Below the pieces are notes generated by a model. It made no database searches. It saw nothing but the letters and a program-made list of their open reading frames with translations, and was not told where the DNA came from. From contig JAFIEY010000192.1 in the NCBI GenBank assembly GCA_020832345.1, positions 1 to 35,169 of the forward strand: a stretch of 35,169 nucleotides of DNA, given 5' to 3'. This stretch comes from Cryomorphaceae bacterium. Its GTDB lineage: Bacteria > Bacteroidota > Bacteroidia > Flavobacteriales > Schleiferiaceae. Below, piece after piece: positions 1,683 to 4,630 of this stretch; positions within the stretch are counted from its first letter, which is position 1, and the number at the start of each line of letters is the position of its first letter. A program made the position numbers and the translations under genes.

Positions 1683-2345
1683 CTAGCGTAATTGAAAATC
1701 TCTATCATCCTCAAAATCAACAAGAATAGATGAGTTTTTCAAGTTACCAAGCGTGGGAATATTTGCCACGGCTTGTTGCACAAAAAAAGTACCCGAATAC
1801 CTTTTTTTTCTTAGCCACAAAAGCATTTGCTGTAAATGGTTTTTATCCATTATCTGATCGTGAAAGGTAGTGCGAACCTCAAAGCTCAAACAAGAACTCA
1901 CCAGCAATTCTATCGACTTTTCAAAGGCAGAAAATTTGGAAAACCCCGTAATACTAAAAAACTTTTCCTCTGGCGCCTTGAAATCCAAAGCAACATAATC
2001 GAGTAGTTTTTCGTCGAGCAACTTTGCTATAACATCCGGACGGGTACCATTGGTATCCAGCTTTATGGCAAATCCTAAATTTTTTAGGTCTTGACAAAAT
2101 TCGAATAATCCTCGGTGAAGGGTACACTCCCCTCCGCTTAAAACCACCCCGTCTAACAAGTTCTTTCTGGTTTTTAAAAACTTCAATATTGAACTGTAAT
2201 TCATTTGGCCTTTCCCCAAAACAATTTCGGGGTTGTAACAATATCCACATCGCATATTGCAACCGGTAAACCAAATGATGGCCGCTAGTTTTCCAGGGAA
2301 ATCAAGCATGGTAAAGGGAGTGTAGTTGAAAATCGGCTTATTCAT
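1683..2345 (-). CDS. nrdG: Anaerobic ribonucleotide reductase activating enzyme NrdG
   Basis: This radical-SAM protein of 220 residues generates the glycyl radical on class III ribonucleotide reductase. Cys29, Cys33 and Cys36 form the CX3CX2C cluster motif (GCNMRCGYC). It is followed by the SAM-binding GGE segment in VLSGGECTLH. It starts 19 bases after the stop of the small glycyl-radical gene and lies in the same operon as nrdD. It resembles the NrdG type that begins with a MLDFPGK segment (residues 13-19), as in the NrdD/NrdG pairs of anaerobes such as Thermotoga. Its substrate here should be the separately encoded peptide at 2365-2532. That is an inference from the missing glycyl motif in NrdD. 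Confidence 0.92.
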   Translation of the reverse strand: MNKPIFNYTPFTMLDFPGKLAAIIWFTGCNMRCGYCYNPEIVLGKGQMNYSSILKFLKTRKNLLDGVVLSGGECTLHRGLFEFCQDLKNLGFAIKLDTNGTRPDVIAKLLDEKLLDYVALDFKAPEEKFFSITGFSKFSAFEKSIELLVSSCLSFEVRTTFHDQIMDKNHLQQMLLWLRKKRYSGTFFVQQAVANIPTLGNLKNSSILVDFEDDRDFQLR

Positions 2346-2364: not shown

Positions 2365-2532
2365 TTATTCTCTAAAATGTATCCTTTCCTTATGTTCACC
2401 TTTTTTACCAATGTTAAAACTTTCTACCGGACGGTGATAACCCATAACCCTAGTAAAAACCAAACATTTAGTTCGCTTTTCTTCATTTTGATTTAGCCAT
2501 TCGGCTGACTTTTTAATGGTCTTAATTTTCAT
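2365..2532 (-). CDS. Separate glycyl-radical subunit of anaerobic ribonucleotide reductase
   Basis: This 55-residue protein carries the radical motif RVMGYHRPVESFN (Gly31 in RVMGY). The motif corresponds to the extreme C-terminus of ordinary NrdD proteins (RVxGY followed by RPV and a GK-rich tail). NrdD here ends without it. The ATG overlaps the end of nrdD by 11 bases (ATGAAAATTAA), which suggests translational coupling. Residues 1-20 form a charged, probably helical stretch that ordinary NrdD lacks between its zinc site and the glycyl loop. A simple sequencing frameshift is therefore unlikely, although +1 ribosomal frameshifting at the nrdD stop would also fuse the two. Cys23 lies eight residues before the glycine. 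Expected role: a trans-acting glycyl-radical peptide that docks into NrdD after activation by NrdG. Confidence 0.85.
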   Translation of the reverse strand: MKIKTIKKSAEWLNQNEEKRTKCLVFTRVMGYHRPVESFNIGKKGEHKERIHFRE

Positions 2533-4630
2533 GTTGATTGGAATTTAATTGTGAAATAATCGCTTCATCGCAGTGCGGGCAAAAACTGTGTTCGCCGGCG
2601 AGGTAACCGTGTTTAGGACAAATACTAAACACGGGTGTAACGGTGATGTAGGGCAGTTTAAATTGTGTTATCACCCTTTTCACCAATTGTTTGCAAGCTT
2701 TTGTTGAGCTGAGTTTTTCACGCATATACAAGTGGAGCACGGTGCCTCCGGTGTACATGCACTGTAAATCATCTTGAAGCATTAATGCCTCAAATGGATC
2801 GTCTGTATGATTGGCAGGAATTTGTGAACTATTGGTATAATAGTTATGTTCTGGATCTCCAGCCTGAATGATTTCCGGGAATCGTTTTTTGTCTTCTTTG
2901 GCAAAGCGATAGGTTGTTCCTTCAGCGGGGGTTGCTTCCAGATTATACAGATTTCCAGTTTTTTCCTGAAATTCAGTCATTCGTTTCCGTATATGTTCGA
3001 GCAAGAATGACGAAAACGCCATACCTTTTACCGTAGTGACATCCTCCTTATCGAAAAAGAAATTTCGCACCATTTCATTCATTCCATTTACCCCAATGGT
3101 AGAAAAATGGTTTCTAAAATGCGCCAAATACCTCTTTGTATATGGATATAAGCCTCGATCGTACATTTCTTGAATAAAGATGCGTTTTTTCTCCAAACTC
3201 CCGACAGCAAGATCGAGCAAATGATCCATGCGCTCCACCAGGGCATCCCGGTCTCCGGCATATAAAAAACCCAATCGTGCCATGTTGAGCGTAACGACTC
3301 CAATGCTTCCGGTCATTTCTGCACTTCCAAAAAGACCATTTCCCCTTTTCAGCAATTCCCGTAAATCAAGTTGCAATCGACAACACATGCTGCGAACTGC
3401 ATTGGGTTTATAGGCTTTGGGATTCTCCACTTTGTTGCCGTTTTCATCCGTAATGTACTGACTTCCGACAAAGTTTTGAAAATATGAGGAGCCAATTTTA
3501 GCCGTATTTTCAAAAAGTACATCTGTGTTTTTACCGTCCCAGTCAAAATCTTCTGTAATATTTACCGTAGGAATGGGAAAGGTAAAAGGCTGGCCATTGG
3601 CGTCACCTTGGGTCATGACCATATAATACGCCCTGTTGATCATATCCATTTCCCGTTGGAAATGCCGATACGTCATTCCACAAATTTCAGAAACACCACG
3701 ATGTTTGGCGACTTCTACCAAAATAGGATCCTTCATATTTTTAAAGAGGTGCTCGTCGTTTCGGGTGGGAATCTGATCGCGTAAATCTTCCGGTACTGTC
3801 CAATCCAAAGTAATATTAGTAAACGGCGACTGTCCCCATCGTGCGGGCACATTTAGGTTGTACACAAAACTTCTGATGGCCTTAAAGACCTCCTCAAATG
3901 ACAAACTATCTTTAAACACATAAGGTGCTAAATAAGTGTCAAATGAACTGAAAGCTTGTGCTCCTGCCCATTCACTTTGAAGGATCCCCAAAAAATTAGC
4001 CATTTGCCCCAAAGCTTCTCGTAAGTGAGATGGCGGCTTGCTTTCTACCCTTCCGCGAACGCCATTAAAACCTTCATTGAGCAGCACCCTTAAACTCCAT
4101 CCCGCACAATAACCTGTGAGACAATCGAGATCGTGAATATGTAAATCACCATTTCGGTGAGCATAACCTTCATCTTTAGCATAAACTTTATCCAGCCAAA
4201 AATTGGCGATAACCTTTCCGGCAACATTGTTGACTAAACCGGCATTGGAGTACGAGGTATTTGCATTTGCATTAATTCGCCAATCCGATTTACTAATATA
4301 TTCGTTGATGGTTTGTGAGCTATCCACAAAAGTCGTGTCTTCAGCTAGTCCATCAACGTGCTCCCTTTGCATTTTTCTTCGGTGACGATACAACATAAAA
4401 GCACGCATAACCTCGAAGTGCCCTATATCGAACAAAGACTTTTCGATGATATCTTGAATCTCCTCTACAGTCCATGTAACCTTTTCATTTAATCTGGACA
4501 ATACATCCCGATATACCGTTTCGGTCAAAACAGAACCCTGACTTTCATAAGCTTTTTCCAAAGCATCAAATATTTTGTGTGCTTGAAAGGGCTGATACTT
4601 TCCGTCCCGCTTTATCACATACATTTCCAT
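2522..4630 (-). CDS. nrdD: Anaerobic ribonucleoside-triphosphate reductase NrdD lacking its glycyl-radical tail
   Basis: This class III reductase core of 702 residues makes deoxynucleotides without oxygen. An ATP-cone allosteric domain occupies about residues 3-90. The barrel carries conserved family segments such as GDLHIHDLDCLTGYCAGW, and a Cys-Cys pair at about 414-415 (RSMCCRL) is in the region of the thiyl-radical cysteine. The C-terminus holds a metal site, CPKHG...CPHC (Cys671, His674, Cys684, Cys687), in which one of the usual four cysteines is His. The protein then stops 15 residues later, before any RVxGY glycyl motif. That motif is on the overlapping small gene at 2365-2532. The gene has its own -7 element at 4651-4658, so the order is nrdD, glycyl subunit, nrdG. 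Confidence 0.93.
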   Translation of the reverse strand: MEMYVIKRDGKYQPFQAHKIFDALEKAYESQGSVLTETVYRDVLSRLNEKVTWTVEEIQDIIEKSLFDIGHFEVMRAFMLYRHRRKMQREHVDGLAEDTTFVDSSQTINEYISKSDWRINANANTSYSNAGLVNNVAGKVIANFWLDKVYAKDEGYAHRNGDLHIHDLDCLTGYCAGWSLRVLLNEGFNGVRGRVESKPPSHLREALGQMANFLGILQSEWAGAQAFSSFDTYLAPYVFKDSLSFEEVFKAIRSFVYNLNVPARWGQSPFTNITLDWTVPEDLRDQIPTRNDEHLFKNMKDPILVEVAKHRGVSEICGMTYRHFQREMDMINRAYYMVMTQGDANGQPFTFPIPTVNITEDFDWDGKNTDVLFENTAKIGSSYFQNFVGSQYITDENGNKVENPKAYKPNAVRSMCCRLQLDLRELLKRGNGLFGSAEMTGSIGVVTLNMARLGFLYAGDRDALVERMDHLLDLAVGSLEKKRIFIQEMYDRGLYPYTKRYLAHFRNHFSTIGVNGMNEMVRNFFFDKEDVTTVKGMAFSSFLLEHIRKRMTEFQEKTGNLYNLEATPAEGTTYRFAKEDKKRFPEIIQAGDPEHNYYTNSSQIPANHTDDPFEALMLQDDLQCMYTGGTVLHLYMREKLSSTKACKQLVKRVITQFKLPYITVTPVFSICPKHGYLAGEHSFCPHCDEAIISQLNSNQHEN

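Follow-up and report, generated by a model that had tools for sequence, protein, structure and literature searches.

The DNA analysed here, referred to as the window, is a stretch of 35,169 nucleotides (contig JAFIEY010000192.1, positions 1 to 35,169) from a Cryomorphaceae bacterium (GCA_020832345.1), and the locus of interest encodes an anaerobic (class III) ribonucleotide reductase, NrdD, together with its activase NrdG. The nrdD, peptide and nrdG genes described next lie on the (-) strand. The nrdD gene (4630..2522) encodes a catalytic chain of 702 residues, termed here the body, in which the glycyl-radical motif RVxGY is absent from the whole reading frame. The chain terminates as ...VFSICPKHGYLAGEHSFCPHC-DEAIISQLNSNQHEN*, with the stop 15 residues past the last cysteine of the metal site (CPHC), exactly as the first-pass annotation had read it. 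A separate gene (2532..2365) encodes a peptide of 55 residues, MKIKTIKKSAEWLNQNEEKRTKCLVFTRVMGYHRPVESFNIGKKGEHKERIHFRE, termed the tail, whose radical-motif region reads RVMGYHRPVESFN. Its ATG lies inside nrdD, giving an 11-nt overlap in the +1 frame. The gene after the peptide is nrdG (2345..1683), a radical-SAM activase of the NrdG2 type, which scores 200.5 bits to TIGR02495 and exceeds the cut-off of 131.15.

Domain matches divide one known family between the two products. On the Pfam model NRDD (PF13597, 562 positions) the body covers positions 2-529 with 531.6 bits and the peptide covers 532-562, with 28.2 bits (E 1e-6) in the protein search against a curated cut-off of 26.2, and with 25.3 bits, slightly below that cut-off, in the six-frame search. 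In addition, the body carries an ATP-cone (PF03477, 70.5 bits, residues 3-86) and matches NCBIfam NF006126 over 3-655 with 1072.7 bits (cut-off 548). The peptide aligns to positions 649-682 of the same model with 20.6 bits, far under the whole-protein cut-off, as it is a fragment of what that model describes. Two candidate active-site residues of the body align with cysteines of the Prevotella copri NrdD (8p23), namely Cys175 (4106..4108, by pairwise alignment; invariant in alignment A4) and Cys417 in the sequence RSMCCRL (3380..3382; invariant in A4 and A6), the latter being the putative thiyl-radical cysteine of the finger loop. A putative metal site, C671-x2-H674...C684-x2-C687 (2570..2620), has all four residues invariant in A4, and the extension of 15 residues behind it (2525..2569) is a predicted helix. 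In the peptide, residues 6-15 (2488..2517) are modelled as an N-terminal helix that may serve as a docking element, and Gly31 of RVMGY (2440..2442), which aligns to the C-terminus of NRDD, is the presumed radical glycine. Cys23 of the peptide (RTKC, 2464..2466) was considered as a residue completing the metal site because it is invariant in alignment A2; this is not claimed, as some phage tails (L260, L266) carry no cysteine at that place.

Codon differences indicate that the gene for the peptide is genuine. Over its 34-codon core, comparison of 85 related loci, some of them near-copies, with the window revealed 1316 synonymous and 274 non-synonymous differences, against a ratio of 61:245 expected from random single-base changes, indicating purifying selection on the core beyond chance. 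The pattern RxKCLVxTRVMGYHRPVESFNIGKKGEH was common to peptides from six genomes. A sequencing error or a decaying gene might be suspected in a draft of 260 contigs such as the window genome; however, the same split recurs across several phyla, in plasmids sequenced to completion and in genomes assembled as one contig, and with the selection on the peptide core this leaves such an explanation a negligible probability. The claims that an overlapping gene supplies the radical motif, and that the break is no simple sequencing frameshift, are confirmed.

The genome scan with the peptide as query, using one genome per species, yielded 532 relatives, of which the best 80 loci were kept; since they were ranked by their match to the window's peptide, they lean to near relatives. 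Among these best 80 of 532, all of which hold a relative of the peptide, scripted classification gave 79 split loci, one cut at the contig end (L113) and none fused; among the 79, the body of L109 is incomplete. The kept loci span Flavobacterium, Aureitalea, Sphingobacterium, Parapedobacter, Belliella, Cecembia, Algoriphagus and Chitinophagaceae, and also include a Balneolaceae isolate and Campylobacter majalis. On L105 (CALPUN020000002.1), a contig titled a metagenome-assembled genome of Bifidobacterium breve, the split nrdD locus is of the Flavobacterium type, and the title is probably a binning or naming error. As to whether close relatives might all be fused at this point, those seen are split, and fused members of the same subfamily exist among more distant relatives. 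Among loci with a separate tail, no body that was checked carries the motif.

The tail co-occurs with the body in sampled genomes. Of 345 Bacteroidota genomes, 22 gave a tail match: 10 of the matches lie within short frames of 56-92 aa, 10 within frames of 714-805 aa, and 2 are weak. In Campylobacterota the tail was matched in 44 of 121 genomes, 43 times in a short frame and once in a fused one (G595). All 20 Bacteroidota genomes with a body over the model cut-off contain a tail (10 split, 10 fused), and so do all 44 such Campylobacterota genomes (43 split, 1 fused). No tail is present in the remaining 77 Campylobacterota genomes, of which 12 have a more distant NrdD, and three Bacteroidota genomes with a distant NrdD (G138, G398, G405) gave no tail match either. 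Among plasmid records, the split form was found in Cupriavidus necator, Bradyrhizobium, Shinella, Azospira, Sulfuricystis, Aquabacterium, Thiothrix (with the body in two pieces) and Sulfuricurvum, and the fused form in Actinomyces, Acidiphilium, Acidithiobacillus and Geoalkalibacter; the sequences of C. metallidurans, Cereibacter and Paracoccus show the split form as well. Labels were set by inspection for L032 and L214 (fused) and for L259 (split, tails unlinked). Automatic labels for 49 loci found RVxGY near the end of the body frame in 32 and not in 17, which is not a clean count of fused and split forms: the fused L282 has a variant of the motif, L300 and L301 carry an extra C-terminal stretch, six (L304, L307, L313, L316, L318, L322) have a separate tail frame, and others are cut or interrupted. 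Judged from sequence, the split arrangement is present in at least four phyla, Bacteroidota, Balneolota, Campylobacterota and Pseudomonadota. This breadth, together with the phage-borne orphan copies described below, goes beyond what the first-pass annotation had noticed.

Spacing and order of the two genes bear on whether they are translated as one polypeptide. The first-pass annotation had allowed for a fusion by +1 frameshifting where nrdD stops, and the window would permit such a programmed shift, since the tail lies in the +1 frame and overlaps the end of nrdD; moreover, at least one in-frame tail start precedes the nrdD stop in 54 of the 79 split genome loci. In the other 25, however, every in-frame tail start lies beyond the stop. 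The distance from the nrdD stop to the tail ATG is 19, 160 and 267 nt in three Flavobacteriales relatives and 142 nt on plasmid pHG1 of C. necator, and in genome G638 about 1590 nt and a NAMPT-family gene separate body and tail. On a 1.85-Mb contig of the Campylobacterota genome G609, the body at 104 kb has no adjacent tail, the tail and nrdG lie at 9.4 kb (about 94 kb away), and two further tails lie in prophage-like regions. In viral loci the tail may stand upstream of the body (L304), behind an intervening nrdG (L322) or about 1.8 kb downstream behind nrdG (L313), and in a phage record of 196.5 kb (G651) the two genes are about 110 kb apart. No frameshift could link genes that have a third gene or tens of kilobases between them, which excludes the fusion for the family.

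Start signals point in the same direction outside Bacteroidota. As a Shine-Dalgarno sequence we scored AGGA, GGAG or GAGG lying at ribosome distance upstream of the closest ATG of the tail. All 12 loci from Campylobacterota genomes have one (3 of these loci are prophage-like), as do 9 of 10 Pseudomonadota plasmid loci and 45 of the 68 viral loci, out of 80, that could be scored; before other ATGs the rate is 7-10%. With the unlinked and reordered pairs, these ribosome sites of the tails themselves and the breadth of the arrangement, both the frameshift fusion and the sequencing error were rejected, and we consider it very improbable that frameshifting accounts for this locus.

The two chains differ from ordinary NrdD at the break itself. 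Split bodies continue for a median of 17 residues (8-32, n=107) after the last CxxC, and split tails carry an added leader such as ILEQNQxLRTKC. Among fused enzymes, the 16 viral rows of alignment A6 have the radical loop almost directly after CPxC, and 13 cellular rows have 7-15 residues between CPxC and the loop. A surrogate in which the body is tethered to the tail by an artificial join was modelled by AlphaFold with 35 relatives in the alignment (16 fused viral sequences, 10 split cellular and 5 split viral bodies, and 4 read through stops), giving a pLDDT of 87.2 and a pTM of 0.82, with tail blocks at 73-89. Helices at 685-698 and 705-714 are predicted to flank the break; the latter, together with alignment A6, agrees with the extra N-terminal helix that had been proposed for the peptide. 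Superposition of the tethered model against P. copri NrdD (VIA-align) revealed a Z of 34.5 and 2.5 Å over 550 residues (model residues 85-753), the model also fits T4 NrdD up to T4 residue 587, and Foldseek ranked class III enzymes first. In the tethered surrogate the radical domain is thus predicted to dock where solved NrdDs have it. An alignment by MAFFT with free tails (A3) was dropped, the tails being placed on the ATP-cone.

Based on gene structure, conservation, start signals outside Bacteroidota, co-occurrence, unlinked or reordered positions and the NrdD fold of the tethered model, we propose with high confidence that the locus encodes a two-chain class III ribonucleotide reductase whose glycyl-radical domain is a free subunit. 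The two-chain reductase suggested by the first-pass annotation is strongly supported by the 79 split loci among the 80, the unlinked and reordered pairs and the ribosome sites outside Bacteroidota. In the proposed mechanism, the 702-residue chain would provide the ATP-cone, the catalytic barrel, the active-site cysteines and the C-x2-H/C-x2-C metal site, and the 55-residue chain would be the glycyl-radical domain as a protein of its own. We infer that the chains stay separate in the cell. NrdG would most likely abstract a hydrogen from Gly31 of the small chain and install the radical there, and the small chain would bind the body by docking into its barrel. The radical would then pass to the finger-loop cysteine (Cys417 by alignment), as from the covalent domain in ordinary NrdD. 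The helices added to the C-terminus of the body and to the N-terminus of the small chain probably hold the pair together.

Several observations weigh against this proposal. Its evidence is that of genes and of a predicted structure. The tether and the 16 naturally fused viral rows bias the model toward the known NrdD pose, and an earlier AlphaFold model built from split relatives only (A4) reached a mean pLDDT of 69.1, with its radical-loop part (721-754) at 25-60; this model was not used as evidence. No Shine-Dalgarno sequence precedes the tail in the 79 kept genome loci scored, nearly all Bacteroidota (C. majalis excluded), nor does one stand upstream of the peptide gene in the window, so that separate initiation in Bacteroidota rests on spacing and on the other phyla. 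Taken by itself, the 11-nt overlap of the window would be compatible with a frameshift. Finally, two Bacteroidota genomes (G433 and G309) gave weak tail matches with no body.

The nearest known system is NrdD with NrdG (the PRK08270/NF006126 subfamily, with solved enzymes from P. copri, S. thermophilus, T. maritima and T4). Similar to class III NrdD, the window system has the ATP-cone, the NRDD barrel, the aligned cysteines, the metal site, an nrdG neighbour and, in the tethered model, the fold. Unlike ordinary NrdD, its glycyl-radical motif lies not in the same chain but in the 55-residue chain, a separate gene product, and both chains bear extra helices at the break.

The peptide also recalls GrcA/YfiD, a free small protein with a glycyl-radical motif, for which a spare-part role has been reported (PMC8683613). 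The small protein might accordingly be mainly a repair part, standing in for the end that oxygen has cleaved from a complete NrdD, and its stand-alone form and the extra copies in prophage-like regions and on viral contigs would suit such a role. However, the window genome, searched whole as a 260-contig draft, contains no full-length NrdD; profile and six-frame searches found one body and one tail, besides one PF02867 reductase of class I/II type. Likewise, in 43 of the 44 tail-positive Campylobacterota genomes the tail stands in its own short frame and there is a single body match. A partner devoid of its own radical domain makes the small chain look required rather than spare, and a mainly repairing role appears highly unlikely. 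The likeness drawn by the first-pass annotation thus stands in that the two may work somewhat alike, and falls as family membership: the Pfam match of the peptide is to NRDD and not to a pyruvate formate-lyase-type domain, a scan to E 1 giving NRDD and a sub-threshold YdfZ but no pyruvate formate-lyase C-terminal domain. The two-chain reductase, with the tail as a probably required part, is our preferred reading.

Copies of the tail are also carried by viruses. In IMG/VR, 129 stretches encode a relative of the peptide, and 80 loci (L115-L194) were kept. One of these is split. In the other 79 neither strand of the stretch encodes an NrdD body; in 37 of the 79 the stretch extends less than 2.2 kb beyond the tail on one side or both. 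Whole-record searches of 22 of the 79 found the tail in all 22, with an extra weak match in one, and a body in none; IMG/VR contigs are often fragments or prophages. The viral evidence rests on this collection because phage GenBank records gave no match at E 0.01 to the window tail (tblastn) and three weak matches (E 0.07-0.1) to a phage tail as query. Ten neighbour proteins from eight viral loci were examined: five match endolysin, holin, structural, neck or terminase PHROGs, one matches a phosphoesterase, three match unknown families and one has no match, and some orphan viral tails adjoin phage lysis, tail, neck or terminase genes. Seven phage tails tested all match phrog_4132, of unknown function (E 5e-8 to 8e-12). 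A second scan recovered 12 viral bodies of the subfamily, some of them near-copies, with an adjacent tail in 10; of the other two, G651 has its tail at a distance of about 110 kb, and the record of G652 contains none. Orphan tails occur as well on two Allochromatium plasmids (L198 3477-3686, L211 2460-2645) with no adjacent nrdD, and plasmid pALVIN01 holds no body.

Other features of these copies were seen in passing. In G651 a stretch containing a LAGLIDADG frame breaks up the tail gene (L276, 185.3-186.2 kb) close to its radical glycine, and the NrdD body (L262) has an insert of about 240 residues. Extra tails lie in prophage-like regions of the Campylobacterota genomes G609 and G645 (L243 3857-4045, L245 3958-4134, L247 3967-4113), hosts that carry a split NrdD; the prophage call was made by eye, with a terminase confirmed for L247 only. 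Four phage tails (L169, L181, L182, L192) have, by eye, an in-frame cysteine-rich stretch ahead of them, perhaps a metal site of their own. Two viral NrdD frames of about 810 aa (L300, L301) end in a C-terminus which by eye we take to resemble a thioredoxin-like domain.

The history of the split was addressed with a quick tree of 57 rows (44 split, 13 fused), thinned to below 88% identity. A body was required, so loci with none were left out, and L201-L210, L041, L052, L063, L079, L109, L129 and L217 were dropped beforehand. Split rows cluster, with five changes needed, at least three of them on starred branches, and none of 500 shuffles as low. Three fused rows, from Actinomyces (L199), Acidiphilium (L200) and G595 (L252), are nested among split ones on long branches with support of 81-99 on the surrounding forks; the matches of L199 and L200 begin near residue 100. 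This suggests, with uneven support, an old single split with later re-fusions. Outside the tree, the viral split forms L304 and L313 are close to the fused type, which suggests that splitting happened more than once.

Reductases from two genes have been described elsewhere. P. aeruginosa makes the reductase NrdJa/NrdJb from two consecutive genes (PMC4860495, PMC4009431, PMC9669993), similar in that respect but a class II, B12-dependent enzyme. Split phage genes include nrdA of Aeh1, nrdD of phiAS4 and 949 and others (PMC3653736); the available part of that work ascribes them to homing endonucleases, introns or inteins, or leaves them unexplained, and describes none as a conserved separate radical subunit. 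Surveys put the radical domain C-terminally on the catalytic chain (PMC9669993, PMC9531940). P. aeruginosa NrdD is listed as 76 kDa (PMC12284477), and because of that mass it may be split too, a lead only. RefSeq-derived tables already name both pieces. We found no description of the split arrangement in the literature searched, which mostly excluded subscription papers, so a prior description is possible.

Pfam matches between 290 and 17175 of the window, around nrdD, include Rrf2 and Crp regulators, Cu-oxidase/cytochrome c, COX1-family, SCO1, MbnP and MauG-type proteins, and neighbours of nrdD also include cytochrome c and VWA family genes, so that the nrdD operon adjoins what reads like a denitrification island. 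The nrdD of C. necator H16 is of the split form, with a 66-aa tail gene lying between nrdD and nrdG. The NrdD of this species is reportedly 76.2 kDa, which would fit the body alone. The nrdDG genes on pHG1 have been reported as essential for complete denitrification in strain H16 (PMC2864759), and this indirect report is the only in vivo support for the mechanism. The same passage of that paper gives NrdDG of strain CH34 as Rmet_5137 and Rmet_5139 and leaves 5138 unmentioned, and a survey lists NrdD and NrdG for pHG1 (PMC3019208).

Glycyl-radical enzymes are described as bearing the radical in the catalytic chain. In the branch found here, an essential enzyme appears to work with the radical on a separate protein of about 6 kDa, which lets radical installation, docking and catalysis be separated and allows one to ask whether exchange of the radical domain repairs oxygen damage. 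It would also follow that tallies of NrdD plus NrdG may overlook a subunit that the enzyme needs. More tentatively, and with somewhat less than even confidence, the radical subunit may be exchangeable, such that oxygen-damaged small chains could be replaced and phages with only the small chain could supply fresh ones to a headless NrdD of the host, sustaining dNTP synthesis during infection. If so, a damaged small chain would be replaced without remaking the enzyme of about 80 kDa. The split may also explain the small phage gene family of unknown function, phrog_4132.

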